A DNA stretch of 64,000 nt from Endomychus coccineus (Eukaryota > Arthropoda > Insecta > Coleoptera > Endomychidae): assembly GCA_958510875.1 (NCBI GenBank), contig CAUEHT010000005.1, positions 1 through 64,000 of the forward strand, given 5' to 3'. The position numbers and the translations under genes were made by a program. The notes under the pieces are model-generated. The model saw only the letters and a program-made list of their open reading frames with translations, was not told the origin of the DNA and made no database searches. Of the stretch, positions 26,847-63,789 are shown in pieces (positions within the stretch are counted from its first letter, which is position 1; each line of letters begins with the position of its first letter).

Positions 26847-29829
26847 TTTTTTTTAGAAGGGGTAAAAAATCTTCTTAAGACGCACCAGCCTGTTGTTTTA
26901 TCGGCTGGCCAGTGTCGGATTCGGTCCCTAGGGAACCGCCTACCGACTAAAAAATTTCCCCTTCAGTAGTTTACAGCATAGCGTATCAGAAACCGCTTTC
27001 GCATTACTTCAATACGCTGTGCTTGTCATTCAATTCCCTTCTGGAATTTAATCAGAGTCTTCGACTCAGTCTCTCCTCTCTCTCTTTGGTTTCTATTATT
27101 CCACGGATGGTTTCATACGCGTTAACCCAGGACGCGTCACTTTCAAGTAGGAATTCCATCATAGTTAGTGGGTTGAATATGCTCCCCGTACGGCGTGAGA
27201 ATTCTCTGCGCTGGTCTCCCCATCTGATACAGGAGAACAGGGTATGCCGTGCGTCATCTTCTTCCGAGCAGTAGGTACACCTGCTCGAGTCGGCTCTGTT
27301 GCGATCAAACAGATACTTTTTGAAGCAACCGTGACCCGATAACGCCTGTGTGATGAAATAATCTATTTCACCGTGTTGCCGACTTGTCCATCGTACAATA
27401 TCTGGAATTAGGACGTGTGTCCATCTTCCTTTTGCACTATTGCTCCAGCTTTCTTGCCACACTAGCATCATTTGGGCCCTGGCCAAAACCTTATCTGTTC
27501 CAGCGTATTTCTCCTTCCTCTCCATTATTTGGAGTTCAATCGGGGGTATTCCCGAAATGACGCACGCTGCTTCCGTTGAAATAGTGGCAACTCTGATGGT
27601 CATTTTCCTTTGAATGCTCCTAAGCTTGGTCACGAGTTTTTTATTTTTTGTTGCTTCATACCATGATGGACAACCGTAGAGTGGTTGAGAGTGGACCACA
27701 CTCGAATAAAGCTTGCATTTCGAGGAGCTAGGCCCCCCTACGTTCGGTATAAGACATGATAGAGCCTTGGTCGTTTTCTCTGCTTTCTCGATAACCTTCC
27801 CAACGTGCACTGCAAAGGTGAGTTTGGTATCCATCCATACCCCAAGATATTTTACTGCACTTTTGGGATTTATCGTTACTCCCTGAAGGCTGAAAGAAAT
27901 TGGTCCCATCTTCCTTTTTTTGTCAGCAATACTGCTTCCGTTTTTTCTGGTGCTACCTGCAGTATGTTTCTCTCCATCCAGTTACAAATCCGTTGTAGAC
28001 CTGCATTTGCTGTGTTCATGAGAATCTCCTCATTCTTTGCAACAACTACCATTGCCACATCGTCTGCGAAGCCCACCAATTCCGCTCCAGTAGGCAACTC
28101 CATCTCTAGAAGGTCGTCGTACAAGATGTTCCACAGTGTCGGGCCCAGTACGGATCCTTGGGGAACACCACTGTTTATGTCGAGCATCCCGCTGTCACTC
28201 CCTTCCACGAAAAGTAAACCCCTGTTTGAGAGGTAAGACGCAATGACGCTGATCAGACTCTCGTCTATACCTCTGGTCCTTAGTTTGTTAAGGATGAGTT
28301 GCCACGATGCATTATTAAATGCATTTCTGACATCTATCGTAATCATGGCACACAGCCTACGATGTCCATGCGAGTATTCTTCAGCATTTCTAGCTATGGA
28401 TATCACCCTATTTATTGCATCCACTGTTTGCCTGCCCTTTCGAAAGCCAAACTGTCTGTCGGATAAGCTTCCGGTGCGTTCCAGTTCGCTGTGTAATCTA
28501 CCAAGCAATAGATGTTCGTATAATTTTCCTTCAACATCAAGCAGGCATATCGGTCTGTAAGATGAGGGGTTATCCAGTGGCTTTTCTCCTTTCCGCAGGA
28601 GCAACAAAGCAGCCTTTTTCCATTCATCAGGGAAGTCAGCTCGACTCGCCAGATCATTGTAGAGTGATAGGACGTATTTGGGGTTTTTCTCAGCTAGAGC
28701 TTTCAGTATTTCTGCAGGTATTTTTCCAGGCCCTGGAGCTTTGTTGTTTTTGAGTTTAGAAACTGCGGCTGTGAGTTCTTCTGCATTAAAATTTAGGAAC
28801 GTAGAGTTTCGGTCACAGAGGAAAGTCACTATTGTATGAGTAGGAAAAAGGTGACTTGCCACTTCTTCCATAGTCTCTAAAGTGAGATTGATCCTGGGCG
28901 GGTAACCAAGTAGACCCTTCATCACTATCATATAACCTTCCCCCCATATGTCACTATCTACAGCATTGCAAATGTTCTTCCAGTGATTCCTTTTCGCTTT
29001 CTTGATTTCGTTTCTCAGAAGTTTTCTGCTCTCTTGGTATGCAGTCCACAGTTCCTGGTTCACGTGTTGCTGGTCTCTTTTTGCGTTTCTTGTATATCGC
29101 CTTCTCTGTCTCAAACAGTTTTTTCGCAGTTCCGCTATGTCGTTATTCCACCAGTACACTGGGCGACGGTTTGGTATCGTTTTTTTCTTGGGCATTGACT
29201 CGTCGCATAGCTGCTCAAGTTTACCAGAGAAAACTGGAGCTGTTGTAGCGGTTTTGTCTTCCGTGATTTGTTGAATAGCCTGCTCAAGTTTATGGCGGTT
29301 GAGCTTGTTTGTGTTCCAACCGCAATCCCGTATACTTCCTGATATGGCTGGGTTTTGTCTTGTTCCTAGAACTTCAAAAAGAATATAATTATGATCGCTT
29401 AGAGATTCCTCTTCCAGGACTTCCCAGTTGGTGATGTTGCCTGCAAGATTTGGCGTGGAGATAGTTAGGTCTAGTATCGAGCCATAATCCCTCCTAATGA
29501 AGGTGGGTTTATCTCCCTGATTCGCAATTATCATGTCGTTTGATGCGATCCATTCGGTCATAATTTGACCTCTCCTGTCGGTAGCAGGCATACCCCAGTG
29601 TGGAGATTTCGCATTGAAGTCTCCGGCTATGATGGCCCTCTCGTAGCCGGTCATAATCATGCTTCCTATTTCGGTGAGAGTTGTTTCAAGATTTTCTAGG
29701 TCTTCGTTTCCCGAGGAGTAGCAGCTAAAAATGGTGAATTCTCTGGTTTTAACATATGTGTACCCTGAACCCTGTCCTTGCTCTATGAGTGTAATTCGAG
29801 GGTCAGTAACCTTGACTGCTGTGTTCAGG
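26847..29829 (-). mobile_element. R1-clade LINE copy B, inserted in (TCTA)n
   Basis: A-tail at 26846-26854 (T-run) and 5' truncation at 29829, each directly next to TCTA repeats. Its 3' UTR is nearly identical to copy C (29998-30143), so B and C are one family. Copy A is a diverged relative. Confidence 0.88.
27052..29829 (-). pseudogene. R1-clade ORF2, nearly complete
   Basis: The frame is open from the truncated 5' end at 29829. Endonuclease: AIIAGDFNAKSPHWG and SILDLTIS, with catalytic-type DxN and SDHN. RT: NNKAPGPGKIPAEIL, SYRPICLLDVEGK, MITIDVRNAFNNASW, GVPQGSVLGPTLWNILYDD, VGFADDVAMVV. C-terminal CCHC: CTYCSEEDDARHTLFSC. The only clear lesion is a one-base frameshift in the A-run near 27915; the first part of the endonuclease is lost to 5' truncation. 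It is better preserved than copy A, implying a younger insertion. Confidence 0.87.
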
Positions 29830-29986
<157 letters not shown>

Positions 29987-30142
29987 TTTTTTTTTTATAG
30001 AAGGGGTAAAAAATCTTCTTAAGACGCACCAGCCTGTTGTTCTATCGGCTGGCCAGTGTCGGATTCGGTCCCTAGGGAACCGCCTACCGACTAAAAAATT
30101 TCCCCTTCAGTAGTTTACAGCATAGCGTATCAGAATCCGCTT

Positions 30143-30143
<1 letters not shown>
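29987..30143 (-). mobile_element. R1-clade LINE copy C, 3' end only
   Basis: About 145 bp of 3' UTR (plus strand GAAGGGGTAAAAAATCTTCT onward) plus T-run, almost identical to 26855-26990 of copy B, with (TCTA)n on both sides. A severely 5'-truncated insertion. Confidence 0.9.
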
Positions 30144-30185
<42 letters not shown>

Positions 30186-30204
30186 ATCTATCTATCTATC
30201 TATG

Positions 30205-30295
<91 letters not shown>

Positions 30296-33977: not shown

Positions 33978-34889
33978 TACATATGGTGTTGCAGCGGTAA
34001 TATCTTAGGTTTTTCAAGCCTAAATAACAAGGTGATAATCCACGTCTTCGAAAAAATTTAGTAGTGCTAGTGACAGTTTCGGAAGTAAACAAAACAAGAA
34101 ATTGAAGTGTTTCGTTTAAAGTGAGGTTATAACGCAAGGGAAATAACAGTGCGTAGGGTGTTGAGAACATAGAACAGTAAGGTTAATAATTGGGTAGTAG
34201 TTCAATAACCCCAGTAAATAGTAGGTCAGATTATTTAAAGCATATATACACTGAGCGCCTGTGAAATCAGGCATAGCAATTGAGAGTTCGGAAATTATTT
34301 ATTTCCAATTAGGAAGTTAAGGGGTGTGACCATCAGAATAAATAGTAGGTGCTTTAATTTTAATAGCTTGAATTAAGCGCTTACAGCATTGTAGGAGCTC
34401 GCAGACTAGGGCCAAGAGAAAGTGTATTTTATTTTTGTGTAACTAGGTCAAGGAACAGTGAACCAGCAAGGGAAGAAGCCGGGTGAATTGAATCAAAAGG
34501 TGTCTCTCGTGTATAGGCACTAATTACGTGCTCGAGCAGAAAGATTTTGATTCTGGGAGTTCTGCGTTTTGATTTTACATTTTGTTTTATTTTATTTTTT
34601 TTTTTGTTCCCCTAAATTGTTTTGCTTTGCAGGGTCAACCTAATCAGATTATTTTTTTTTTAGTAACAATTTAAGTCAAAATTTTTCTTTCTTTTCATCA
34701 TTCAACGCAGATTGAATTCACCAGTTGTATTTTATTTTTGAATTTCTTTTAAATTCAATTTAGGGAAGTAGCCGAAAGCTAACGAGAGGTCAAATTTTTC
34801 TTTTTTTTTTAGTGGTGTTAGTAGGTACATAGTTGGTTTTTCGGTAGCGGAATCATCAGAGTTGAGAGCTACATCAATCCGGATTTCAA
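33978..34889 (+). other. Leader between 5' LTR and gag
   Basis: Non-coding. TGGTGTTGCAGCGG at 33984 begins with the TGG expected of a tRNA primer-binding site just after the LTR, but I cannot match it to a tRNA. T-rich tracts occur at 34560-34720. Confidence 0.4.
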
Positions 34890-35570
34890 ATGAATCCTGC
34901 AGGTGTACCAGGCCCAGCCCCACTAGCAGCTTCATGGCCAAGTATGCCTTTAGGCATGGTTGCTGGGACAGTGGATCCCTTTTCAGGGAAGAAAAATGTA
35001 AAGGCCTATTTTGCCAAATTAGAGCAAAGGTTTAAGCTGGATGGTTCGTCGGAAGAGAATACTTTGAAAATACTAAAGTTCCGACTAGAAGGGAAAGCGT
35101 ACACTTACTTCCAAGCGGATGCCGATTTGGATAATTTGAAATATGACGACTTGTGAGACAAGCTGATAGAGCGTTTTTCGCCTCTACGAACATCAGGGGA
35201 AAGCTTGGCTCAAGTGGCCAAGTGCATCCAACGTCACGATGAATCGGTGGCCGAATTTGCCACTCGTATTAAGCATTTTGGGAGGCAGGTCTTGGAAGGG
35301 GATCTGATGGATGCAGTGGAAGAAGAAATTCCGGGTTTGAGGAAGAATACTGAACGGACTATGATCCACCAGTTTAAGCAGGGCTCAAGGAAAGAATTGA
35401 TGCGGGATATCGCAACAGCATTAATGCGAGAACCAAGCCTCACCCTCAAAAAGGCGGAGGAAATGGCTAGGCAGTCAGAAAGGGTTGAGCTCCAGTTGAG
35501 GTCAAGACCCTCAGCCACTCTTAGTTTGCCGCGATTTCGGAACCTACGACCAAAGGAATGAACCTAGAGG
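34890..35570 (+). pseudogene. Gypsy gag
   Basis: Starts MNPAGVPGPAPLAASWPSM, followed by the capsid-like retrotransposon gag domain (VDPFSGKKNVKAYFAKLEQR, LKILKFRLEGKAYTYF, then a FATRIKHFGRQVL segment). An in-frame TGA at 35154 splits it; the frame resumes and runs to 35561. A zinc knuckle is not visible before the frame is lost. Gag would form the cytoplasmic particle. Confidence 0.75.
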
Positions 35571-35819
35571 GAGTAGGAAGCCAAACACCGCTCGACCTTC
35601 GGGACAAACAAAACCGGCTTTAAACTAGCACGACCTTGTCCGGAAGCTCCTAGGAGCAAGGTTGCTAGTGGGGTTGAGGAGCAAGGGGAATGGACGTTGG
35701 TATAGCGTCAGGGAAAAGGGAACGGTAACTTCAGAGTCATACAACCCTCGATGGAGAAAGGGACGAGGCCCACAACACCCAGGGTAGTAGTCCCTTGTGT
35801 AGGAGGCATAGGGTCATTC

Positions 35820-36529
35820 GGAGGACCCACTAACTTAGGGGTTCGATTGAACGGACAACAGCGCACTTTATGCATAGACACCGGATCTGCGCTCTCTCTC
35901 TTTTAAAAGAAAGTAGCGTACCAAGCGAGGCAGTATCCCTGCCCGGCACGATTCGCTTGGTAGACATTTCTGGAAAAGAGATGACCTCTTCCGCCCTGGT
36001 CCAATGCCAGGTTGAATATAAAAGATTGCGGCCCCACCTGTTGCAAGACTGGGTGGTGGTTAAAAACCTTCCACTACATGCAGACGGGATTTTGGGCACA
36101 GACTTTTTGAACAAGTGCGGAGCCATCATTGACTATGCTCGTAACACCATCAAGATTAGAGGAATAACTACGCCACTTGTTATGGATGTGCCCTATAAAC
36201 GGCCAAGTCAGGTGCTGGTGGCACCAAAACCGACAACGCCTAGTACTATCGCCACCCCGCTCGCTAAGTCAAAGCCTCAACAACCGCCGGTTCCTTCAAC
36301 CTCAAAAGGAATGCCATGCAGACCCTCTCGTTACTCTGAACCACCACCGGTAAAACCAACGTACGCCCAGGTAGCTTCACTGCCTCGGCCCAAACCCTCC
36401 GATAGGTCCCTCCCATTGCATAAACCTCCACATATCACGGAAATCAGTAAAGGCGATACACCGAAAGGCACGCGCAGGAATTCCGAAGCGAAACCGCCCT
36501 CCACACGGCTATGTCACGTAAGTTTATGA
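35820..36529 (+). pseudogene. Gypsy aspartic protease and linker
   Basis: The catalytic DTG is readable at about 35870-35890 (LCIDTGSALSL) in one frame. After a frameshift in the CTCTTTTAAAAG stretch the frame continues (GTIRLVDISGKEM, then the ADGILGTDFLNKCGAIID flap and C-terminal region typical of retropepsins). A proline-rich linker follows (about 36190-36500). Linked to the RT frame by a stop/start region at 36529-36533. Confidence 0.7.
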
Positions 36530-36532
36530 GAG

Positions 36533-38300
36533 ATGGAATCTATACCTCCTCGAAGTGAAATCGAATGTTGGGGTAAGGTAGTAGGTCAAAAACCTACGGG
36601 AGAACTAGGAATGATTGAAGCCTTAAGTAAAGACCTGGAAGTGGGAGTACTGATCGCCAACGCGGTAGTACCATTCACCAAGAAAGTGAGAATTCGTCTC
36701 ATGAATTTGAACAACTACGCGGTCCGACTAAGGGCAAAAACTGTGTTGGGCACCCTATCTACTGGAGTGGAAGTTTTAAGTAAGACTCAGAAGCAGGTCG
36801 AACCGGCTCGTCCGGCTCAGTTATGGTGTAGACCAGATTGGGAAGACCGAGAAACAGGGAATTCAGACGCAGTGGATTTGTCTCATCTACCGAAGGACCC
36901 CCAAGCCTTAGTCAGAGCCTTTCTCAAAAGATATCACCACATCTTTTGTGGTGAGAACGAGATCCTATCCAGCACTGATCTTGTGAAACATCGACGAATA
37001 ATCACCGAAAATGTACCTCCCATCTCGAAAGCCCCTTATCGAGTACCTTTCCATACTAGGGATGAACTGAGGAAGGAAATCGATCGGCTACTGGACGATA
37101 AGATAATAAGGGAGTCAAAAAATCCATGGAGCGCTCCTGTAGTTATGGTAAGACGGAAGCAGCCCGACGGCTCTATGAAGATCCGACTTTGCATCGATTA
37201 TAGGGCTCTTAACGCCGTGACTAAAAAGGACTACTACCCGCTCCCTCTCATAGAAGAGCTACTGGAACAATTCGGAGAGGCCAGTCTGTTCAGCGTGTTT
37301 GATGTAGCCTCGGCCTATCATCAAATAAAAATGGAAACTTCGGACATCGAAAAAACGGCTTTCAGCACTATGGATGGTCACTATGAGTTTCTGCGTATGC
37401 CTTTCGGGTTGTCCAATAGCCCTAGTACTTTTGCTCGCTTTATTAACACCGCAATGGCCGGTCTGAACCATCTCATCTGCAGCGTATATCTGGACGATAT
37501 CATCACTTATAGTGCCGACGATGTGACCGAACATCTACGACGACTGGCCCTAGTTTTCGATCGCTTAGCGGAAGCCAACATAAAGTTAAAACCTAGTAAG
37601 TGTCACATGTTGAAACCAAAAGTAACCTACTTAGGCCACGAAATTTCCAAGGCGGGTGTAAGCCCTTTAACCGACAAGGTGGAAGCTATCAAGGATTTTC
37701 CCATTCCCAGTAAGGTAAAAGAGGTGCGAGGATTTTTAGGCTTGGTAGGATGGTATAAGAAGTTTATCCCGAACTTCGCTGAGCTAGTTGCCCCGCTTAC
37801 GGAGTTAACCAAGAAGGACGTGAAGTTCATAATCACGGAACAGGTGCTGGGGTCCATTAACAGCTTAAAGGAGGCCTTGACCTCGGAAAGCGTGCTGATC
37901 CATCCTTATTTTAAGGAACCGTTCATCCTATCAACGGATGCGTCAGGAACAGGGATCGCCGCAGTGCTGAGCCAAAAGGTCGATGGGCACGAACGGCCTG
38001 TAGCTTTTGCGAGCAGGAAATTGACCGGCGCGGAGACCAGGTACACGGTCACTGAATTGGAATGCCTCGCAGTTGTATTTGGAGTGAGGCAGTACAGGTG
38101 TTTCCTGTATGGAAAGAAATTTGAGGTAGTAACGGACCACATTTCCCTCAAGTGGCTGTTGTCACTGAAGGATCCCACCTCAAGATTGGGACGGTGGTCG
38201 ATCTTGCTGTCGGAGTACGACATAGAGATCATACATCGACCTGGGAGGAAGCACGGGAACGTAGACGCCTTAAGTCAGGTCTACGAAAGCCCGGACTGGG
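36533..38300 (+). CDS. Gypsy reverse transcriptase and RNase H
   Basis: Continuous frame. RT: NPWSAPVVMVRRKQPDGSMK, RLCIDYRALNAVT, SVFDVASAYHQI (first catalytic Asp), FGLSNSPSTFARF, SVYLDDIITYS (the YxDD box). RNase H: FILSTDASGTGIAAVLSQ (Asp), TELECLAVVFGVRQYR (Glu), FEVVTDHISLKWLL (Asp), then IIHRPGRKHGNVDALSQ. Copies the element RNA and removes the RNA strand. The same open frame runs straight on into the macro domain. All catalytic residues are intact, in contrast to the flanking domains. Confidence 0.9.
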
Positions 38301-38339
38301 ACTTTGAAATGGACAGATGTCTAAAGGACATAGCAGGAA

Positions 38340-38800
38340 AGCAGATCGGGGGTAAATCAGTGGATAACGTTGAAGGAGATCTGCTTAAAGCCCCAGAGAA
38401 ATTCGCTTTGGCTCACTGTGTGGGTGCGGATTTCGGCATGTCCCAGGGAGTTGCCCTACAATTTCGGGAGGCTTTTGGAAACACCTACCTGCTGAAGAAA
38501 CAGAATAAGAAGGTGGGAGAGGTTGCCAGTATGGAAGTCCAAGGGCGCCTCACGTTACATATGATCACCAAGGACAAAAGCACCGATAAGACCACGGAAA
38601 GATCCGTGTTCCAAGCCCTCTGGAACCTTAGGCAGTTATGTTTGGAAAAAAGGGGTTTTATGGTTAGCCATGCCACGAATCGCGTGCGGATTAGACGGGT
38701 TAGATTGGGGAGTCATCGGACCAATGATAGAGTGGATGTTCGATCACACGCCCATAAAGGTTAGGATCCATGTGTTGGACAGGTCGAAGACTGCGGAAAG
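38340..38800 (+). pseudogene. Macro domain (TARG1/OARD1-like) inside Gypsy pol
   Basis: In frame after RNase H comes VEGDLLKAPEKFALAHCVGA, then a GxG-type FGMSQGVALQFREAFG, KVGEVASMEVQGRLTLHMI with TKDKSTDKTT, and a helix ALWNLRQLCLEK. After a frameshift near 38655 the other frame continues MPRIACGLDGLDWGVIGPMI and KVRIHVL. This is the full order of the TARG1/OARD1 ADP-ribosyl-acceptor hydrolase macro domain (GDL, AHCVSAD, MPRIGCGLDGL). The ITK lysine and GLDGLDW aspartate, at the positions of that family's catalytic pair, are present. It lies between RNase H and integrase. Function in the element is unknown. Confidence 0.85.
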
Positions 38801-39360
38801 AACGGGAATATGTCTTACCGCGCAGGATAGGGGCAGGTGCTGTGTCCAATTGGTAAAGGATTTAGAGATATGTTTGACAAGCACCGAGTTAGAACCTATA
38901 TGGGATGGGGCAGATATAGTGGTAGCACAGAAAAAGGACAAGTTTTGTGCCCAAGTAGTGAGGGACTTAGACCCCGAGTCAGGGGAGGGTAACGGATACC
39001 GATTGTCCCAGAGTAGTGTTTTGTATCAGTTAGCGGACAACGGATCCGAGCGGCTCGTCATACCCCAGAGTTGGGTACCGACACGACTACCACGATGTGG
39101 CGTACATCGGCCACCCAGAGCAGTATAAAACTTGGCGGTTGATGCGTCAGAGACATAAGGAGGTACTGCGGAAGATGCCACCGGTGTAACCAACAGAAAA
39201 CGTCAACTCATTTAGGAAAGGCACCCTTACAAAGATTTACTGAAGTATGCGAGCCTTTCGAGAGGACAGCAATGGATATTGTGGGGCCGTTGGTGAGGTC
39301 CGATAATAAAAATCGGTACATGCTTACTTTCCAGGATCACTTTACCAAGTATGATGATGA
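38801..39360 (+). pseudogene. Gypsy linker and truncated integrase
   Basis: The frame from 38670 continues past the macro domain through a linker to about 39075 (LVIPQSWVP), then shifts. Integrase zinc-binding pieces follow (a HDVAYIGHPEQY-like stretch and MPPxCHRCNQQK), then AMDIVGPL with the first catalytic aspartate at about 39270 and YMLTFQDHFTKY. At about 39350 the core breaks off; the second Asp and the Glu are missing, replaced by a short piece resembling the integrase C-terminus. An internal deletion of several hundred bases is inferred. Confidence 0.7.
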
Positions 39361-40576
39361 TGGAAAACCCGTTCCTACTAGACATGAGGAACAGTTACAA
39401 ACCGGTAACCTGTTCATGTTACGTCACACGCCGCGATCTTTATAAAAGCCGGCCCATTTCATAGCTAAAGGGGACTCACTTGCCAGACCAGCACCGAGAT
39501 TGACCTGCCGTAATCCAAACAACCCGAAGGCGTTGTGCAAATCCGAGAGATAGAAAGTGAGTATTAATTGCCGTATAAAATCCATTCAAGTTATTGAATT
39601 AACATTCCAGTATATAAGTCCGATTTCAAATTCGAACTTTGTTAATAAATTCAATAGTCTACAAAACAATCCTGGTAGCTTGGACGAATACGATTCAGCT
39701 CCTGCAAATTGTTTTTCTAGAGACTAAGTTAGAATATTGCCGAGACCGATTTGTAGAATTGTGAATAAACTCACAGTCGAAACCGCCGGAAAGATCAATC
39801 CTGGTAGCTTGGACGAATACGATTCAGCTCCTGCGAATTGTTTTTCTAGAGACTAAGTTAGAATATTGCCCGAGATCGATTTGTAGAATTGTGAATAAAT
39901 TCACAGCCGAAACCGCCGGAAAAATCAATCCTGGTAGCTTGGACGAATACGATTCAGCTCCTGCGAATTGATTTCAGGGGCTACGTTGTGATGCTTTCCG
40001 AGACCGACGTGTGAAATTATTAAGTCAGTCATAGCCGAAGATCAACGCACAAATCAACCTAGTCCGTAATGCCCCGCTCAGTAAGAAATTACGTCTGAAA
40101 TACAGGTCGGAGTGAACATACGTTCCACGCTCCGTCGAAGTTAAAAGTGTACTAAATATTTAGATTGTCGCGATTCATTTCTAGACCTAGGGCCAAAAAC
40201 TTGTCTATCATCTCACGCAGATGGTGGAAACTCCCGGCGCTAACCGACGATAGGAAACCATCTAATTAGCGAGTTATTTTATACACGGAAAACGAACACA
40301 TGAAACGGCCTGTTCTGAGCCACATTTTGTAAATAGATTGTACGTAGAAAGTGTAAATATACCGAATGTAAATAGGGATAATTAATAAACTTAGTTGAAC
40401 AAGAAATATCTGTTTTATTTGGCAATCAACACGGAAGAGGAATAGCAATTTTGAAACCTATATGAAAAGGGAACCTGGACCCTCAAGAAACCCGAGCAGG
40501 TCAGTTACTGTCATAAGAGGACAGTAAGTGACAACCTCCCCCACTTGTAATTAACCATTCAAGCGAAAGGAGGTTA
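39361..40576 (+). other. 3' untranslated region with a 129-130 bp tandem repeat
   Basis: CAATCCTGGTAGCTTGGACG begins at 39667, 39796 and 39926. Units 1 and 2 are nearly identical; unit 3 diverges in its second half (to about 40060). No gene. Upstream of the 3' LTR lies AAAGGAGG (about 40564-40571), a plausible polypurine tract. Confidence 0.75.
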
Positions 40577-50576: not shown

Positions 50577-50853
50577 AATGAAATCTATGCTATGCAATGT
50601 TTCAATCTTAGTGCATTATCAGTTTTACTACTGAAAATCCTCATTAAAAATGTAAAGAAACATATCAATAATGATAATAATAAATAATGAAAGGTATTGC
50701 TGTTGTGTGATTTTGAATAGGAGATAGGGAATCAGTTAGATACAAACATTTTAACTTTTATTTTTTGAAATATATACAATTTTAAAATGACCTATATATA
50801 AAACACTTAAATCTAAAAAATGTTTCCTACAAATTCCACGAAAAAGGACGTGT

Positions 50854-51910
<1,057 letters not shown>

Positions 51911-53899: not shown

Positions 53900-53995
53900 T
53901 TCCAGCACCACCACCACCACCACCACCAACAACATCCCTGCTAGGTTACTTCTGTTATATACCATAAGGTAGGCTGCTTGTTTATTGTTTAAAAT
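53858..53995. repeat. (GA)n and (CAC)n microsatellites
   Basis: GAGA run at 53868-53897 followed by a CCACCACCACC run at 53904-53930, just before the polymerase start. Confidence 0.9.
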
Positions 53996-56900
53996 ATGGT
54001 TTCAATCGCGAAAATGAGTGGGGAGATCGTTAATATTATCAACGAGGCTCAAAAGGATTTATTAAAATCAAAATTATCCCCTCAGGAAATAACAAAGTGG
54101 ATAGGTTTCTGTACTAAGTACATTAGGACTTTTTCTAGACATATAACTAAAGATACTATGAACTTGTCGTGTAAGAATCAATTGCAATGTAATATCGGCC
54201 ATTTGAAAAGATTCAAAATTTTATTAGAGATCCGAAATAAACCCCCTACAACTAATAAGAACCGTAGTGAGCGAATTCGTTGGGAGGATGGTAAATGTGC
54301 ATTTTCCCAACGAATTCGAACTGGCTTTATAACAAACATTTCTCATTTAGACCCATTAAATTTTTTATATGATGCCTTTCATCTGTTTCACCCTAGAATC
54401 ACCAAAATTTTACATACTTACAATTTTATTAAGGTAAACACGACATTTTGCGGGGAATATATGCGGCTTAATGCGATCGACGAGCTTATCCAAACAGAGT
54501 ATAACTATTTTCACACCAAATCCGCTCCGATAGATTCTTTTACAAATTTATTGGAGTGGTTCAAGGAGAATGTTATTGATAAGCTCCAAATGAAGCTGGA
54601 TGATTTTTTAGAACGAGACTCGGGGTGGAGCCTTAGGGAGGTTATCAGTTTGGGCATAAATATTAATAAACATGAAGTCATCAATTCTGGGTCCTCTTAT
54701 ATAGTTCTACCAAAAGAGATACTCCTAAAGCATGCTATTATTAATGTTAAAAATTACGACGAATACTGTTTTGCCTGGGCAGTAACAGCGGGACTACACC
54801 CGACAGCTACCCATTCAGATCGTGTTTCTTCATACCCTCATTTTAGTAATGTTTTAAATTTACAAAATCTAACATTTCCCCTCCCTATATCTCAAATTCC
54901 AACTTTCGAGAAGAATAACGATATTTCAATTCATGTATTCTTTTTGGAATTATGTGGAGGTAATGAGCAGGGTGAGGGGGGGAAATTGAAGGTTCTCCCT
55001 GCATATTTAACCAAAAATAAATTAGATAGACATTTTAATTTACTATTAATTCAGGATAAATATTATCGAGATGTAGAACCTGCGAAATCCTCAAATTTCA
55101 TTGACCCCACAGTTAAATTTCACTATTGTCTAATTAAAAATCTATCAAAACTTGTAAATTCCCAAATTACCACACGACACAAAACTTATTTGTGTGATAG
55201 ATGTTTAAATAATTTTTATAGTGAGAATAAGTATAAAAATCATATTGAGGATTGTGGTAAAATGAACATGTGTAAAATTACATTCCCTCAGGATGATTAT
55301 TTAAAATTTCAGAATCACTCAAACAAACTACCCATACCATTTCTTATTTATTTTGACTTTGAAGCTCTCCTATTACCTATTCAGAACTGCTCTCAATCTA
55401 ATGTAAGTTCATATTCGAACAAAACCCAGCTACACGAGGCGTATAGTGTTGGGTATTATTTAAAATCTCAATGAAACAATTCCCTATCACGATTTGATAG
55501 TTATAGAGGATCAGACCCAGCCAAATGGTTGACCGATCAGCTAGATAAAATTGGAGAATTTATCGATCTAAAACTTAAATCTATTGTACCTATGGACTTG
55601 AATGGTATTAGTTTACTTGATATTATGAAGGAAACGAAATGCCATATTTGCGAGAAACAGTTCGAAGAGGGAGAAGTTCGTGTGAAGGACCACTGTCATT
55701 TTACAGGGAAATATAGAGGATTAGCCCATCAGGACTGTAATTTGAATTACAAATATCGATTCGTAGTACCTGTTGTGGCTCATAACCTCAGCGGGTACGA
55801 TATGTTTTTGCTAATTCGAGATATTGCCAAATCGTCCAAGCAGAATATTCAAGTACTCCCCATCAATAAAGAGAAGTATATAAGTTTCACTAGAAGTACC
55901 AAAAATTCCGTGGTTAAGTTTAGTTTCATCGATTCCTGTCGGTTTTTGGATTCTAGCTTGGACAAATTAGTTTCTTATTTGAATGTGGGTGACTTGAATA
56001 TTTTGAAAAGCGAGTTTGCGATGAAAAATTCAAATTATCAACTCGTAAGGGAGTATTTCCCTATGAGCACTTGGATGATTGGGGTAAATTGAACGAGGAA
56101 AATCTTCCTCCAATAGAAAAATTTTTTAATAAATTACGCGACGAATCGATAAGTGAGGATGATTATAAGCATGCTCAAACAATTTGGAATAGTTTCAATT
56201 GTAGAAATTTAGGTGACTATTCGGATTTATATTTGAAAACAGATGTTTTATTATTGGCCGATGTATTTGAGAATTTCCGCAGCAAATGTATAGATCTTTT
56301 TGCTTTAGATCCGGTCCACTATTTCACGGTTCCCTCCTTCACGTGGGACTGTATGTTAAAATATACAAATGTGTCTTTGCAATATTTAAAAGACATCGAT
56401 ATGGTCTTATTTGTGGAGAAGGGAATTCGTGGAGGTGTGAGCCAATGCAGTAATCGATTCGCAAAGGCCAACAATAAATACATGAATAATCACGACCCTG
56501 AAAAAGAAAATAGTTATTTAATGTATTTCGATGTGTGCAATCTATATGGATGGGCTATGATTCAATATTTACCCTATGATGGGTTCAAGTGGGTTGAAAA
56601 CCTCGATGATGTAGACGTTCGAAACGTCTCAGACGAAAGTCCAATTGGCTATATATTGGAAGTCGATTTAGATTACCCACCTGAACTACATGATCTGCAT
56701 AAAGATCTCCCTCTGTGTCCCACTCACACAGCACCACCAGGCAGCAAATTATCCAAATTACTAACAACTCTCCATAATAAATCTAAATACATCATTCACT
56801 ATCGAAATTTAAAACAATGTTTGGCGCTGGGGATGGTGCTTAAAAAAGTCCATAGGATTTTGGAATTTAAGCAAGCTCCGTGGCTTAAAGCATATATAGA

Positions 56901-57756
56901 TCTCAACACTAGATTGAGGGCAGCTTCTAAGAATGCGTTTGAGATAGCTCTCTTCAAGCTGCTGATCAACGCAATTTTCGGTAAATCTATGGAGAACATA
57001 CGAAAGCATAGACTAGTTAGATTAGTTAATAAATGGTATGGACCCTATGGGGCTCGCTATTATATTTCCCAACCTAATTTCAATAGCAGTAAGATATTTG
57101 AGGAGAATTTGGTGGCCATAGAACAAAATAAATTAGAAGTTTTATTCAACAAACCCATCTATGTGGGGATGTCTATTTTGGACATTTCCAAAACTTGCGT
57201 TTATAATTTTCATCATGGCTTTATGCTAAAATTATATAAAGACCCTGGATTGATGCGATTATGTTACACCGACACTGACAGTTTGATTTATCACATTATT
57301 ACAAACGATGACATTTATGAGTCAATTATAAATAGAAATATCGGGAAATTTGACACAAGTGATTATGCTCCAGACAACCTCTTTAAGATTCCACAGGTCA
57401 ACAAAAAAGGAGTAGGCTTAATGAAGGACGACAATAAAGGGCTCCTCATGGATAAGTTCGTTGGTTTGAGGGCAAAAATGTACAGCTTCACTGTCCAAAA
57501 TCATGACGCTAGTGACGTCACAAAGAAAGCCAAAGGGGTGCGCGAGTATGTCTTACGAAACACCATTACATTCGAAGACTATGTTAGATGTTTAGAAGAG
57601 AACATAGAAATGTATCGCGTTCAGAGATCTATCCGCTCTTTCGACTTAAAGCTATACACCATAGAGCAAAATAAAATCTGTTTGAGCCCCTTTGATAATA
57701 AAAGGGTAATATTGGGGACAAAACAAGCACCCTACCTTATGGCCATTATTCTTTAG
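53996..57756 (+). pseudogene. Protein-primed DNA polymerase B of Maverick
   Basis: N-terminal region (53996-55300) ends in a CxxC-H-C finger (CDRCLNNFYSENKYKNHIEDC). Exonuclease: ExoI YFDFEALLLP, an embedded endonuclease-VII-like finger (CHICEKQF, DHCHFTGKYRG), ExoII HNLSGYD, ExoIII YLKTDVLLLADVF. Polymerase: MYFDVCNLYGWAM (motif A), ALFKLLINAIFGKSMEN (motif B), CYTDTDSL (motif C), FVGLRAKMYSF (KxY-type). The C-terminus is LSPFDNKRVILG. It replicates the element from a terminal protein. Lesions: in-frame TGA at 55472 and a one-base deletion near 56063; the last residues look altered. Catalytic motifs are intact. Confidence 0.93.
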
Positions 57757-57950
57757 GTTAGAATTAAGATTTTTTATGTTTTTTAAATTAGTATTAAGAT
57801 ATATGTATTTTGTTTCAAATTATAGGTTAAGATTTTTATGAGTTATTATTATTATTATTATATTATATATGTACTTTTTTCCAAAATAAAATATTTTATG
57901 AGGAAGTTTGGGTGTTTTAATAAAACCAAAAAATAATAGCATCAATTCTT
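57757..57950. terminator. Convergent 3' ends
   Basis: AATAAAATA at about 57885 on the plus strand follows the polymerase; the next gene converges from the minus strand. An ATT microsatellite lies at 57846-57860. Confidence 0.5.
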
Positions 57951-58685
57951 TTATTGTTCTAAATCATACAGAACTTTATTCTTATAGAAAAATAACATTT
58001 CTCTAAGTGTATTGCTTAATAAACAGTCGAGCGAAATACCGATGAAACAATACAAGAGGGCCATTTCATCGAGCTGCTGCTGCTGCTGTGGGTCTCTCAT
58101 ACTTTTAATAATATCAATAACATTATGATAGTATGTGGAAAATCCAAAATGTTCGAGAAAAGACACTCGATGCAATAGCACATCATCGTTGATTCGAATA
58201 ATTTCTCGAACATCTTCCTCGCACAACCACACATGGATATTATGCTTTGTAACTTGAAGTAATTTAACATTATTGAAGTACACAAGTTGGACTATTTGGC
58301 AGTATTCATCAGATGATATGGGTGCAGCATCGAAATCTGATTGTAAACTTGCGAAGAACTCGATGATTTTCACTCGAAGAATATCGATTAAATCGATCCA
58401 TTCTAGCAGGCTAAAGCTGAGTTTGCAATTTTGAACGTATTGAACGAGTGAGATTGTAGGTGAGAAGGTCCGTACAGGACTCAATCCACATTCGATTTCA
58501 TAACTTGCCCCCACCAACGGGTACGTTGTATTCATCAATAGGAATGGTTCATCTTTTGCCTTCATCTCGAACTCTTCTAAAATATGATCCAACTCAGAAC
58601 AGTTGCTGCTGCTGCTACTGCTATCTTCACCAACACTAGCCTGGGACAACATCTTATTAAAACTGTTCTGGATTGTTCGATTCAC
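57951..58685 (-). CDS. Uncharacterised Maverick protein, 244 aa
   Basis: Starts MNRTIQNSFNKMLSQASVGE, with a serine run, then a mixed helical region with no recognised domain (FSLLEWIDLIDILRVKI, VWLCEEDVREIIRIND) and a glutamine run. No transmembrane segment is obvious. Intact frame. Position among Maverick structural genes suggests a virion or assembly role, by context only. Confidence 0.6.
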   Translation of the reverse strand: MNRTIQNSFNKMLSQASVGEDSSSSSSNCSELDHILEEFEMKAKDEPFLLMNTTYPLVGASYEIECGLSPVRTFSPTISLVQYVQNCKLSFSLLEWIDLIDILRVKIIEFFASLQSDFDAAPISSDEYCQIVQLVYFNNVKLLQVTKHNIHVWLCEEDVREIIRINDDVLLHRVSFLEHFGFSTYYHNVIDIIKSMRDPQQQQQLDEMALLYCFIGISLDCLLSNTLREMLFFYKNKVLYDLEQ

Positions 58686-58735
58686 CAGAACCTAACCCCC
58701 GCTCACAAAATATTTACTTACACATGCGCAGGTCA

Positions 58736-59392
58736 TTAGCAGCATATTTCTTTGATTGGATTGGAAGTTTGGATGAGAACATCGAAGCATAAAACTTGAA
58801 GTGTGGGGGGAGGAGAAAATTTGTGGTGTTGGTTGCGTTCTCCATCGACTATGTATGAGTCAAAGAAGAAAGTTTTATTAGAAGTTCCTTTACGAATCCC
58901 TCGTAGATCCATTATTTCACAGCGGTAAGGCAGAAGCGCGATCCGATAAAAACCGACATCAATTTCATGTAGCACTTTGAAACAATCAAGTATATAGGAC
59001 CCCGGTTTTGGGGTTATACCAGGAATTTGATGTAATATAAATTTCTTCCATCTATTTTCGTATATAAAGTAGCCTTCAACATTCATATCAATTATCCCCC
59101 AATCGTTTTCGGGTGGGTTGAAATCTCCTTCAAAATAGAAAATATCCACATAACCGCATTCCTTCACAGCCCCAATAACGAACGTTACAAATTCTCCTGC
59201 GATTATCCAATTTTTAGATGGTAATTGTAATTCTTCAAGGGTTTCCCTCAAATTTGGAATACATACTACACTTATAAATTGTTTCGCATCGTACACGGTG
59301 GTAAGTACATTATGAACAAAACTGTTGTATAATTGCAAAGACATTTTCACGCAGACTGATTCGATTATTTGACTTACACTGGGCTGAACCAC
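58736..59392 (-). CDS. Uncharacterised Maverick protein, 218 aa
   Basis: Starts MVQPSVSQIIESVCVKMSLQ; an internal Met at residue 17 is an alternative start. WIIAGEFVTFVIGAV followed by DIFYFEGDF recalls the G-[GS]-x9-13-D-[DE] pattern of nucleotidyltransferase folds, but the glycine pair is not perfect and no third acidic residue is obvious. Intact frame, 50 bp from its neighbour. Confidence 0.55.
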   Translation of the reverse strand: MVQPSVSQIIESVCVKMSLQLYNSFVHNVLTTVYDAKQFISVVCIPNLRETLEELQLPSKNWIIAGEFVTFVIGAVKECGYVDIFYFEGDFNPPENDWGIIDMNVEGYFIYENRWKKFILHQIPGITPKPGSYILDCFKVLHEIDVGFYRIALLPYRCEIMDLRGIRKGTSNKTFFFDSYIVDGERNQHHKFSPPPTLQVLCFDVLIQTSNPIKEICC

Positions 59393-59435
59393 CAGTCAAA
59401 TATTTTATTAGGAAGACATGCGCAGCAGCAGTACA

Positions 59436-60359
59436 TTATACAACATCAGAATTTTCAATCCAACTTTTCTCTTTTATACCGTACCTTTTTACATACATTT
59501 TATCACCCTTTTTTCGAAGCACCTTCTCGATCAAATAAACATCTGGCTGTTTGGTTTTCTGTAATTCTTCCTCGTAGAAACAGCCGCTGATTGGTGCGTT
59601 GGTCATATCTTCTAGTAGATATGTGACTGGGTTGGTAATTTTAACTTTGATGATTTTAAATAATTCCGCACTCCAATTGGGTGTAAATCCCTTCTCAAAA
59701 ATATGTTTAGCTTTACTTATTCGCACAATATCCCCTACGTGGTATTTGTGGGGCAGGGCCAACTTAATGTGAGAGTAAGATTGCTTCAATATGCGATTTT
59801 CATTCTGTTTCGTAACCTTGAACGGAGCCATTTTTATAGTTCTATGTTTACGATGATTATATTTTTCGGTGACTTCAGGGAGTGTATCCACCCATTTGTA
59901 TTTCCCACTCAGACTGAATTGCTTGTAGATCGCTTCTTTCAACGTTCGAATGACGCGTTCAGCAATGGCGGCTTTCTTCACAGAATACGTATTATAATGG
60001 TTGATTTTATGTTTTTTCATTAGCTCGTCAAAGTACCTGTTGAAGAATTCTTTTTCCTGATCGCTTTGCAGGTTCCTAGGCGTACGATGTGACCCTTCTA
60101 GCAATATAGAACTGACCACTTTCCGAACCTCTTCGGCTGATTTCGTTTTCAGCGGGCGTGTCCACAGAAATTTCGAGAAGCAATCGATCACCACCAAAAT
60201 GTATTTAAATCCACGATTTTCGCGCGCATAATTACCCATCTCGGCAAGATCCATTTGCCACAAGTCATCCAACCCTTTTATGATTGTTCTGCGACGTTTA
60301 AAATTCTTTCGAACAAGCTTATGAAGCTCATCAACCACCTGCGCTTTACCCTTAATCAT
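59436..60359 (-). CDS. Maverick integrase with C-terminal chromodomain
   Basis: 307 aa. Retroviral-type catalytic core: LWQMDLAEMGNYA (Asp 1), NLQSDQEKEFFNRYF (Asp 2), IAERVIRTLKEAIYK (Glu), so the DDE triad is complete. Then KYHVGDIVRISKAKHIFEKG (SH3-like region) and a C-terminal chromodomain (VYLIEKVLRKKG, MYVKRYGIKEKSWIE). It inserts the linear element into host DNA; the chromodomain may guide it to chromatin. The N-terminal zinc finger is short or missing: the annotated start MIKGKAQVVDEL has only the end of the HHCC region. Frame intact. Confidence 0.93.
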   Translation of the reverse strand: MIKGKAQVVDELHKLVRKNFKRRRTIIKGLDDLWQMDLAEMGNYARENRGFKYILVVIDCFSKFLWTRPLKTKSAEEVRKVVSSILLEGSHRTPRNLQSDQEKEFFNRYFDELMKKHKINHYNTYSVKKAAIAERVIRTLKEAIYKQFSLSGKYKWVDTLPEVTEKYNHRKHRTIKMAPFKVTKQNENRILKQSYSHIKLALPHKYHVGDIVRISKAKHIFEKGFTPNWSAELFKIIKVKITNPVTYLLEDMTNAPISGCFYEEELQKTKQPDVYLIEKVLRKKGDKMYVKRYGIKEKSWIENSDVV

Positions 60360-61296
60360 TTTTTTGGGTCGATCGGTGTTGTCGGAGCTAATAACTTTTG
60401 TGGTGGTGGAGAGGTGGTAGGAGCTCTTTTATAAGGATGATGAGATGAGGCGGCTTCACCTTTTGCTTTTTTTGATATCTTCAGCGTAGCACCCGTAGTC
60501 AAACTGATGATGACATCAATCGCTTGTTCTATTTGCAACACTTTGCTTTCGATGGTCTGTATACGTGTGGTCATGGGCTGATCATTAGTACTACGCGTTT
60601 TATAGTTTAATTCTATAGTTATCAGTTTACTATTGATGGTCTGTATACTATCGAATAGGTCGTTATATTTCGAACTGTTTTCTTGATCGTTACTAACAAG
60701 TGTTTCATAGTCTTCACGTATTTTCTTCAATAATTTTTCAAGATTTGCCTCATTTGCTTTATTAGTTTTGAACGATGCTATCTACCATCTACAAGTTTTT
60801 CAATTTTAATTCTATTTTGTGTTGTAGAAGCAATCAGAGAGTCTGTGAATTTTTTATTTTCGATGTGAAGGTACCCACCCTCATTATGTATACTCTGTTT
60901 TATAGCTGTAGAGTTGACATCACTTTGATTTTTGTATGACTGTATTTCGGTATAAAGGATCTTCAAATCTTCGCGAAGTGCATCTATTAATCGTGTTAAA
61001 CTTGGAATTGAGGAATTCATGATGTTATTGACGTTTATATGAATGGCTGCATACTTTACCAGAACTTCACTTAAATTCGCATTCACTCTAGTGATAGTGT
61101 TATCTACATATGCTTTGTTTGCAACATCATTATCCGAGATAGGTATTTTCACATTACAAATTTTCAAATTTTCCATATCCACATCACCTTCGGGCGTATG
61201 CCTTAAAATGTTCATAAACATCGATCTGCGTTTGAAAACGTCGACGATGCTATCACCCGACAACGCTGATCGCCTACCGAACTTATCAAGACTCAT
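60356..61296 (-). pseudogene. Fibre-like / coiled-coil Maverick protein, probably one gene split by a frameshift
   Basis: 61296-60778 starts MSLDKFGRRSALSG, with a trimeric-fibre-type DMENLKICNVKIPISDN, ANKAYVDNTI stretch, then heptad-like helices. A second frame from about 60769 to 60356 continues coiled coil (NLEKLLKKIREDYETLVS) and ends in a basic, proline-rich tail. The two frames meet within about 15 bases at 60775, suggesting a one- or two-base shift splits one protein. MSLDKFGR starts and NKxYVD motifs recur in Maverick proteins and phage-like tail fibres; a spike role is inferred. Confidence 0.6.
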
Positions 61297-61329
61297 TATA
61301 TAAATGGTGTTGGGTTGAAGTATCCAGTA

Positions 61330-62217
61330 CTAATATATGATGTTTGCCTCTCTTAGTTCATTTATTATAGCAACAATTTCATTATCGTTTGAAGTATTTC
61401 CAGCTTGTTGTGATGCCACCAGTAGTTTTAGTCGGTCCACCAGCTCGTTTGGATCATCCCAAAAAATATATTCCATAGGCTTCTTGTTGTATGTTAAATG
61501 TAAACCGCTACCGCTTGCTGCTGCTGTCGAAGTCGTCTCCGACGATGACAGAGAGGTTGGTCGAAACATAGGTTTAATTATGGACATGTACTTTATCGCA
61601 CTGGTACCCTTCAAACGACCATTAACATTTTTATGTGCATTTGTTAACCTCAAAATTTCTTTGTATGCTACTCGATCGTTATTCGTGAATTTTGTGGGTG
61701 TTTTGTAGAATATGAGATCGTACAATCCAGGTGTTCCCTTTGCGCTATATCCTGCAGTTTCGATATTCTCCCCGAATATTATCTTTTTAACACCTAGAAT
61801 CCACCCGGCAGAGCTCGCATCATAAACAGGTCCATATACTTTATCGATTTTCTTGTTGTTTTCCCAATGCTCTTGAACGTATTTACGAACTTGTGGGGGA
61901 TAATGTGCAAGTGAAGGTTCAATCTCAGTCATAGCATCATCGAACGCGTCATCCTCCTCTCCCCCCTCCCCCTCTTCTTCTTCTTCTTCTTCATCGTTAT
62001 CTTTAGGTTCTAATTTTATTTCTTTTTTCATTAACTGCGCAGTAGGATGTTTAATTTTTTTAACGATAGCTTTCAATGGTGTGGCGATAGGTTTGAACAG
62101 TTGTTCTATTGATTCGTCTTCTTCAGATTTACCTAGCTTCAAGGCCAAATATTTCTTCCTTATAGACTTACTCAATTCGAAGATTTCTCGCTTACGTGCT
62201 AACTGATCGGCGTCCAT
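61330..62217 (-). CDS. DUF8207-like Maverick protein, 295 aa
   Basis: Starts MDADQLARKREIFELSKSIR, then a basic region, a 20-residue acidic run (about residues 76-98), and a C-terminal domain with AGWILGVKKIIFGENI, GTPGLYDLIFYKTP and YKEILRLTNAHKNVNG. This GxxGLYxLI...ILxxTNA pattern is what I remember as DUF8207, common in Maverick-associated proteins. Function unknown; a structural or scaffold role is guessed from its place beside the ATPase. Frame intact. Confidence 0.65.
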   Translation of the reverse strand: MDADQLARKREIFELSKSIRKKYLALKLGKSEEDESIEQLFKPIATPLKAIVKKIKHPTAQLMKKEIKLEPKDNDEEEEEEEGEGGEEDDAFDDAMTEIEPSLAHYPPQVRKYVQEHWENNKKIDKVYGPVYDASSAGWILGVKKIIFGENIETAGYSAKGTPGLYDLIFYKTPTKFTNNDRVAYKEILRLTNAHKNVNGRLKGTSAIKYMSIIKPMFRPTSLSSSETTSTAAASGSGLHLTYNKKPMEYIFWDDPNELVDRLKLLVASQQAGNTSNDNEIVAIINELREANIIY

Positions 62218-62243
62218 CTTGTATTCAGACTAAAATTAACAAT

Positions 62244-62933
62244 TCACGTTTTTATATATACATCGAAACCTTTGCGGTATCTACCATCGTTCAAGTCGAA
62301 ATCCTTTGCAATGACCAAAGTTCCGAAATTATCCGTCCAGCACATGGCGCACATCTTCTTGAACTGATTGAAATCGACGTCGGGCGATACGTGCTCATCA
62401 AATACCTGCTTCAAATTGATCTCGTCCTGCTTAAAAAGAACGATCAAATTACAATTGTCGCGAATCAATTGTTTCGGTATTTTCGAGTACGTTTGGCACA
62501 GATATGCCGCATCGATATTCTTATGTCTACACATGGAATAGTATTCCCGAATTTTTTGTTGACCCTCGCACGCGATGTCATCAAAAAGGAATATGGAATT
62601 AGCTTTAGGCTCGTTCGGGCTTATTATTTCCTCGTTGTCCTTATAGGGAAAATAGCCGACACCTTTAACTCGATCTAAAACTTCCTGCAACAGTCGATAC
62701 TTGGGCTGATACAACGACTTTGAGTATACGTAGACGTTTTTGAACTTTGCCCCATTTGGATTGAATAATAGCGATAACATCACGTTCGTTTTACCACACC
62801 CACTAGGTCCACAAATTATAGCGCGAAAAAAGTCGGGTAACAATTTACCATGTTTACCTATGCGATTAGTAGTCGCCGACCCGAGGTCTAAATTTTCGAT
62901 GGGCAGTGTCTGCTCTTGTTGAACGGTCTTCAT
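62244..62933 (-). CDS. Genome-packaging ATPase (FtsK/A32-like)
   Basis: 229 aa. Walker A IICGPSGCGKTNVML; Walker B NSIFLFDDI; a sensor region AAYLCQTYSKIPKQLIRDN. The A32/FtsK-type ATPase pumps DNA into virions in Mavericks and relatives. Separated by only 76 bp from the divergent minor-capsid gene. Frame intact, start MKTVQQEQTLPI. Confidence 0.92.
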   Translation of the reverse strand: MKTVQQEQTLPIENLDLGSATTNRIGKHGKLLPDFFRAIICGPSGCGKTNVMLSLLFNPNGAKFKNVYVYSKSLYQPKYRLLQEVLDRVKGVGYFPYKDNEEIISPNEPKANSIFLFDDIACEGQQKIREYYSMCRHKNIDAAYLCQTYSKIPKQLIRDNCNLIVLFKQDEINLKQVFDEHVSPDVDFNQFKKMCAMCWTDNFGTLVIAKDFDLNDGRYRKGFDVYIKT

Positions 62934-63009
62934 ATTGTGAGGTAGTTTGAACCTGATGATTGTATATATATATAAATAGAAACGTTCGGAGATCGCGAGC
63001 TCAGTATCA
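62934..63009. promoter_or_regulatory. Divergent promoter between ATPase and minor-capsid gene
   Basis: 76 bp between opposite ATG codons containing TATATATATATAAATAGA (62964-62981), which can serve as a TATA box in either direction. Late-gene promoter by context. Confidence 0.5.
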
Positions 63010-63789
63010 ATGTTGATCTATCAGGGTGAAGGTTTGTTGAATTCGCTCATAAACAGTCTCCCGTTCGAAGTACATATTCCATCGTATCAATTCTGCGGGC
63101 CTGGTACTAAGCTACAGAAGCGACTTGCGCGTGGCGATAAAGGTGTTAATACGTTGGATTCGGCCTGTCGCGAACACGACATAGCTTATTCCCAGCACAA
63201 ATCTCTAGAAGATCGTCATAAGGCCGATAAAATATTAGAGGACGCAGCTTGGCAGCGTGTTAAATCTAAGGACGCTAAGACCGGCGAAAGACTAGCTAGT
63301 CTATTGGTTACTGGGGGAATGAAAGTTAAACGTAAACTAGGAATGGGTATTAAGAAACGCGCTGGTCGTCGTGGGGGATGTTGCTTTCGGAAAGATATCG
63401 TAGGAAATATTTCCAAGTCTATGGAACCGTCTGCGTCGTTGCGAAAGTCTGCTATGAATGCATTGAAAGCTGCACAAATAGCTATTAAGCGAGTTGGAGG
63501 TGAGAAGCGTGTTAAAGTACCACGCATAATACCCCTGCCGAAATCTGGAGGATTCCTCCCGTTATTACTACCTATTTTGGGAGCGCTGGGGGCCTAAGGG
63601 TCTGTGGCGGGTGGTGCAAGTGCCATCGCTAATACAGTAGTCAATGCTCGAAACGCCAAAAAGAAGCTTGAAGAGGATCAGCGTCATCATGCAGCTATGG
63701 AATCGTTAGGTAAAGGATTATACTTGCGGAAGAATGCGAAAGGTGGATTTGGGTTGTTTTTGAAGAAACAACAAAAAAACTTCCATTAG
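63010..63789 (+). pseudogene. Minor-capsid-like protein with parvovirus-type phospholipase A2 domain
   Basis: Residues about 25-90: YQFCGPGTKLQKRL (Ca-binding loop YxxCGPG) and DSACREHDIAYS (catalytic HD in the CxxHD helix), the VP1-type PLA2 that breaches endosomal membranes in parvoviruses and is known from Mavericks. Then a basic region, a hydrophobic GGFLPLLLPILGAL and a small-residue stretch, and a C-terminal GKGLYLRKNAKGGFGLFLK. An in-frame TAA at 63595 separates the PLA2 part from the rest. The frame is disturbed again in the A-run near 63772. I do not reconstruct it. Confidence 0.8.

Follow-up and report, generated by a model that had tools for sequence, protein, structure and literature searches.

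A TARG1-like macro domain in a decayed Gypsy copy

The first 64,000 nucleotides of contig CAUEHT010000005.1 of the beetle Endomychus coccineus, the whole stretch of DNA that was analysed and is called the window here, contain the remnant of a Ty3/Gypsy retrotransposon with a macro domain in its pol region. A single open frame (36530-38764, +) encodes a reverse transcriptase (RVT_1, around 37175-37645) and an RNase H (RT_RNaseH, around 37910-38218), both placed by Pfam in its part from 36530 to 38284, and then runs into a stretch that matches the cellular protein TARG1 (OARD1, C6orf130). A short linker (38285-38344, +), the boundary of which was taken from the sequence and the domain matches, leads to the first two thirds of the macro domain (38345-38650, +) in the frame of the reverse transcriptase and RNase H; the last third (38658-38777, +) lies in a different frame. 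In phmmer searches of the PDB sequences, the first piece matched human TARG1/OARD1 (2eee) with an expect value (E) of 3e-16 and the second one matched residues 80-146 of the TARG1 chain 4j5q with E 1e-8. A TARG1 profile made from six stand-alone proteins, and independent in that the window sequence was excluded, gave E 6e-29 and E 5e-9; it recognised exactly two segments in the whole window (six frames, open pieces of at least 25 amino acids), both in this element. The initial annotation, made from the DNA letters alone, had proposed a TARG1/OARD1-like macro domain after the RNase H and a frameshift within it. The matches bear out the former, and the frameshift is real: the domain is split over the frames 36530-38764 and 38565-39128 (+), with the break between the two pieces. 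The motif MPRIACGLDGLDW is located in the second of these frames. The Lys and Asp that had been named as a catalytic pair do align with that of TARG1, the Lys codon (38570-38572, +) with Lys84 and the Asp codon (38694-38696, +) with residue 125, and in the window copy they are in different frames. Residue 125 is called Glu in the available part of the text that describes the pair (PMC7050489), while it is an Asp in the human TARG1 chain.

The remainder of the element is also broken up. A linker defined by its frame (38784-39081, +), for which no PDB sequence match was obtained up to E 10 when it was searched alone, separates the macro domain from the integrase zinc finger. The start of the integrase (39082-39349, +) was recognised from the translations and a match to the integrase of prototype foamy virus (PFV; E 0.05). 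Its His-His part is at 39082-39186 and its Cys-Cys part, with the start of the core, at 39143-39349 in another frame. Comparison with the Gypsy integrase in the protein P0027 gave E 1.5e-7 in a small comparison set. The similarity stops around 39349, and nothing of the remaining integrase core was recognised in the window copy. Upstream, several broken frames (34866-36529, +) probably represent gag and protease, judging from their position and from reading by eye; on three window pieces no Pfam match to gag or aspartic protease was found. No pair of long terminal repeats (LTRs) was found around the copy. As the macro domain is split over two frames, the integrase is broken and short, and an LTR pair was not found, the window element is a decayed copy that does not contain the whole macro domain in one frame. 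Directly past the remnant, a 130-bp unit is repeated 2.4 times (39663-39974).

A search with macro-domain profiles had been suggested in the initial annotation, and a lack of any profile match, which would have refuted the proposal there, did not come about. The Pfam Macro profile (PF01661) matched neither of the window pieces, but it passed its 22-bit cut-off in relatives from the same genome, namely in the loci L007 (23.8 bits), L006 (26.5 bits), and L025 (22.9 bits). The missing match in the window is taken as a consequence of the low sensitivity of this profile, since the independent TARG1 profile and the PDB sequences match strongly.

Copies, relatives and constraint

The arrangement of the element could be read in less damaged copies, one for each of two families, A and B (the names A, A', and B were coined in this analysis). 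In L007 of family B, RNase H, the macro domain, Integrase_H2C2, and rve follow each other in one frame of 794 amino acids, with PDB matches to Ty3 Pol (E 7e-55), TARG1 (E 5e-38), and PFV integrase (E 1e-23). In L025 of family A, to which the window copy belongs, the order was assembled piecewise as RNase H, macro domain, H2C2 and rve, and integrase C-terminal domains. The position between RNase H and integrase that had been proposed for the window is the same in both copies. The domain order of a Ty3/Gypsy pol was also seen: the window has a reverse transcriptase followed by RNase H, and L007 and L025 have RNase H followed by integrase.

The genome that contains the window (906 Mb in 129 contigs) is rich in such copies. 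The first macro piece of the window gave 150 scored matches among 215 candidates; these counts are lower bounds, and some matches are two pieces of one copy. Family A accounts for the best 60 of the 150 matches (88-100 % identity), 28 of which sit within an open frame of exactly 1611 amino acids. The group A' is about 58-72 % and family B about 40-46 % identical to the window piece; 11 matches of family B (42-43 % identity) fall within an open frame of 1678 amino acids. The RNase H sequences of families A and B are about 61 % identical. When 29 family A loci were compared with L025, 12 showed 1-6 differences in 3309 bases, L024 and L027 showed 23 and 18, respectively, in 2766 bases, and the other 15, including that of the window, were 91-93 % identical over 2007-3310 bases. 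As the family splits in this way into near-identical and more divergent loci, one of its subfamilies has been mobile in recent times, and the window copy belongs to an older layer that has decayed. A six-frame search of the genome with the Pfam Macro profile returned five matches, two of them Gypsy copies, as compared to the 150 found with the window piece. The domain is therefore easily missed by this profile, and such elements may be overlooked in other genomes.

Outside this genome, a relative was found in a public protein set from another source: P0004 (349 amino acids) carries RNase H and the macro domain in one frame. It was one of 32 matches to a query consisting of the RNase H tail and the macro piece, of which 30 contained RNase H and two were stand-alone macro proteins. 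Among the 30, P0004 is the sole carrier of a macro domain. The domain is absent from P0006, P0010, P0012, P0024, and P0027, each of which extends at least 148 residues beyond RNase H; the remaining 24 of the 29 other RNase H matches end too early to judge its presence. More distant Gypsy elements are without the macro domain. The macro piece alone retrieved three TARG1-like proteins, and a search with a region of the 744-amino-acid window frame yielded no relative among 75 candidates. No relative of the element was found in scans of viral contigs, while a scan of genome contigs gave one bacterial TARG1-like locus, phage records a macro-like match, and plasmid records either macro proteins or RNase H on its own. 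A Gypsy fragment with protease, reverse transcriptase, RNase H, and integrase, and with no macro domain, was met in L002 (NZ_CP087956.1), which is labelled a Wolbachia plasmid from Corcyra cephalonica; the sequence looks like a moth retrotransposon.

The fold of the domain was examined on a model of P0004, which stands in for the window copy. In this model (mean predicted local distance difference test score, pLDDT, of 82), the macro part superimposes on TARG1 4j5s with a template modelling (TM) score of 0.90, normalised to the length of 4j5s, and a root-mean-square deviation of 1.8. The structure prediction advised in the initial annotation shows a macro fold for this relative. The spacing between the catalytic Lys and Asp is 41 residues in human TARG1, P0004, and L007 alike. 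The macro domain of the antitoxin DarG is also a fold match of the model. In the PDB sequence searches, the TARG1 values of 3e-16 and 1e-8 for the two window pieces and 5e-38 for L007 compare with 0.04, 2e-4, and 6e-5 for DarG chains, and among the macro domains of known structure, TARG1 is the closest to it in sequence. The DarG entry of NCBIfam matched the window pieces weakly, far under its cut-off (E 0.01 and 6e-5). When the P0004 model (m067a561fe637) was compared with a viral library, the top entries were an RNA-dependent RNA polymerase of Aedes aegypti To virus 1 and VP8 of Kadipiro virus, with about 370 aligned columns each; these entries may be retroelement proteins under a wrong label, or additional fusions.

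In a tree of RNase H sequences, the nine macro-bearing entries fell into a single clade, apart from the 24 others (support 96/91). The comparison sequences had been retrieved with the window piece as query, and six of the 30 RNase H matches were omitted because fewer than 120 residues could be aligned. Within the clade, P0004 groups with B, and A with A'. An early macro tree of nine sequences was unresolved; in two later ones the Gypsy domains stood together at 85/93 and 86/93, with the same inner order as in the RNase H tree, although this support is below the 95 mark, one of the points against the explanation favoured below. Because RNase H places the macro-bearing elements in one clade, a single capture followed by vertical descent is suggested as the simplest reading. 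The sequence ACGLD, common to the window and P0004, was considered as a mark of common descent and dropped, as family B has GCGID and yet groups with P0004.

Retention of the domain was assessed in 52 loci (L006-L057, among them L008, the window itself). A domain was counted as being in one frame if it started no later than profile position 15 and reached at least position 130. This was the case at 47 loci, whereas the domain was split or cut in the other five. The catalytic Lys is present in all 47 one-frame domains and the catalytic Asp in 46, L006 having a Tyr instead; the 47 are not independent of each other, because family A includes many almost identical copies. For six sequences, hand-picked from these 47, the ratio of nonsynonymous (dN) to synonymous (dS) substitution rates was calculated. 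In the macro domain, dN/dS was 0.12-0.17 in the four pairs of A with A' (L025 or L009 versus L041 or L043).

These results bear on two of the alternatives. The domain could be a stray TARG1 fragment or a processed pseudogene that ended up in one Gypsy copy, as might be thought from the broken frame of the window domain and the degraded state of that copy. This idea retains practically no probability and is refuted by the copies in the genome: the 150 scored matches, the long open frames, the 47 one-frame loci, and the relative P0004 from another source do not bear out a chance insertion. In addition, a TARG1-like exon belongs to the host itself (L073, G000:C1:216518500-216521500; C1:216519894), with an open frame from position 1377 that is preceded by a splice-site-like CAG and with the motif GCGLDRLEW intact. 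It is likely an exon of the cellular TARG1 of the host, and it shares only 31-36 % identity with the Gypsy macro domains. The domain could also be a passive spacer or a functionless relic, which would agree with replacement changes at about twice the rate of RNase H. This is highly improbable in view of the low dN/dS between subfamilies, the retained catalytic pair, and the presence of one-frame domains in two families as far apart as A and B.

Several observations nevertheless weigh against the explanation favoured below. The synonymous distances are near saturation for A versus A' (dS 1.3-2.0) and exceed it for A versus B. Pairs of A' members gave a macro dN/dS of 0.27 and pairs of B members one of 0.52, in both cases from few changes. 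The macro domain also changes faster than its neighbour: dN was 0.24 as compared to 0.11 in RNase H for L025 versus L041, and 0.57 as compared to 0.31 for L025 versus L048, while for L025 versus L009 dN/dS was 0.17 in the macro domain and 0.035 in RNase H. This roughly twofold replacement rate could result from conflict with the host or from weaker constraint, and fits either. Finally, two glycines (MG.G and.G[CA]G[LI]D), constant in all seven stand-alone relatives read, are changed in A, A', and P0004 (L039 retains the second one) and retained in B. Because of these changes, the substrate or the rate of the domain may differ from those of TARG1.

Other mobile elements of the window and the host genome

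A second type of retroelement with a TARG1-like domain was found in the same genome. It is a non-LTR retrotransposon, copies of which follow one another head to tail with a period of 6149 bp on contigs C7 and C22 (L068, G000:C22:3000-12900); L069, L070, L075, and L076 are further loci of it. Its first open reading frame (ORF1, 837 amino acids) combines the TARG1-like domain (E 1.9e-23; macro at 1166-1630 of L068) with a zinc knuckle, and the frames of ORF2 specify an endonuclease and a reverse transcriptase. The macro domain has kept the Lys; the Asp motif reads GLIGQEPTW. Of the 21 matches to this element, C5 has three in its first 21 kb, C6 two in its last 20 kb, and C7 four in its first 36 kb; seven fill the 45-kb contig C22, one is on C23, and four are inside chromosomes (C2, C3 twice, C5). 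At the end of C6, 9.2 kb of TTAGG repeats is preceded by 25 A residues that close an element copy, and at the start of C5, 4.3 kb of CCTAA repeats adjoins a copy. Six further stretches (L069-L072, L075, and L076), that of C3 included, all contained runs of TTAGG or CCTAA. Telomeres of TTAGG are indicative of an arthropod host. An independent capture of the telomeric domain was considered and does not follow from the trees, as the approximately unbiased (AU) test does not reject a topology that unites all retroelement domains (p-AU 0.296).

Other repeats and mobile elements share the window with the Gypsy copy. At 1420-2786 (+), a reverse transcriptase is followed by a GIY-YIG domain, an arrangement known from Penelope-like elements. 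Two Rfam R2_retro_el matches (26858-26963 and 29996-30205, -) are located beside elements with an APE-type endonuclease and reverse transcriptase, where R2 RNA is not expected. A GTGTGA tandem array of about 176 copies occupies 50852-51906, and a Polinton/Maverick-like block (53993-63597) contains a DNA polymerase B just under the cut-off, an rve integrase, an A32-type ATPase, and a phospholipase A2-like protein.

Known systems and the possible role of the domain

TARG1, an ALC1-like macro hydrolase, is the best PDB match of the Gypsy domain both by sequence and by fold, but it is a stand-alone cellular protein and not part of a retrotransposon pol. According to the available part of PMC7050489, it cleaves ADP-ribose from Asp and Glu and from phosphoesters at nucleic acid ends. 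DarG has a macro domain of the same ALC1-like class and, as stated in the same part of that source, is without the acidic residue of the catalytic pair, unlike nearly all of the Gypsy domains. Captured macro domains have been seen in other retroelements: some fish epsilon-like endogenous retroviruses carry macro-domain ORFs (Basta et al. 2009, as cited in the accessible text of PMC4977317), which are, as far as described there, additional ORFs of vertebrate retroviruses and not domains between RNase H and integrase. A Gypsy lineage of Ectocarpus is alike in having a conserved domain of NAD/ADP-ribose metabolism in Pol; as far as the part of the source at hand describes it, that domain is of another family (NADAR), is located at the N-terminus of Pol, and belongs to a brown alga. 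TRADD-N immunity genes fused to retrotransposons have a different architecture in the text seen of PMC8195603. No earlier report of a Gypsy element with the order RNase H, TARG1-like macro domain, and integrase was found among the matches listed from open-access PMC, as judged from titles and the starts of abstracts.

The favoured explanation, held with moderate confidence, is that this Gypsy lineage captured and retained a TARG1-type hydrolase which counters host ADP-ribosylation beside the integrase. The lineage would have taken in the domain between RNase H and integrase, most likely once, and retained it as a functional part of pol that travels with the reverse transcriptase and integrase. 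Host ADP-ribosyltransferases would put ADP-ribose on the ends of the complementary DNA (cDNA) of the element or on acidic residues of its proteins, and the domain would remove it, so that integration can proceed. Because both catalytic residues are retained, the domain is probably an active ADP-ribosyl hydrolase. Its place next to the integrase suggests that it would act on the cDNA ends or on the integrase and its partners; that this is its role has a chance of slightly under one half. Resistance to a PARP-type defence, as raised in the initial annotation, would be consistent with the conserved catalytic residues and with purifying selection.

The same place next to the integrase would suit a domain that binds ADP-ribose or poly(ADP-ribose) on chromatin and thereby directs the integration complex to sites with this mark. 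Chromodomains play such a targeting role in other Gypsy elements. The macro domain directly precedes the integrase in L007 and L025, the domain of the telomeric element has kept the Lys and not the Asp motif, and macro domains can read as well as erase according to the part of PMC7050489 at hand. Such a reader function is nonetheless unlikely, as the acid of the catalytic pair, presumably dispensable for mere binding, is retained in 46 of the 47 Gypsy domains. A hydrolase could also act away from the DNA of the element, for example, on host factors of translation, stress, or immunity. A role of this kind has been proposed for the macro domains of RNA viruses. The protease could cut the domain out of the pol product; its position between RNase H and integrase, however, would bring it to the cDNA together with these enzymes, and action elsewhere is considered rather improbable.

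Both retroelements can be brought together in a wider, tentative view that is doubtful at present: ADP-ribosylation may be a front of conflict between host and retroelements, in which two unrelated classes, a Gypsy lineage and a non-LTR element, each captured a TARG1-type domain, the former in pol and the latter in its gag-like ORF1. That of Gypsy would erase host ADP-ribose at cDNA ends or the integrase, and that of the non-LTR element would bind or handle ADP-ribose at chromosome ends. As reported in the accessible part of PMC7712786, eight mobile elements changed significantly in Drosophila without PARP-1 (five up and three down), three of which are of the Gypsy class, and ten further elements, nine of them Gypsy-class, went up below the cut-offs. 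If the Gypsy macro domain is active, it would argue strongly for ADP-ribosylation as a limit on animal retrotransposition, since an eraser under selection is expected only where the mark is written. The element would then offer a natural and abundant probe of PARP action on reverse-transcribed DNA and integrase.
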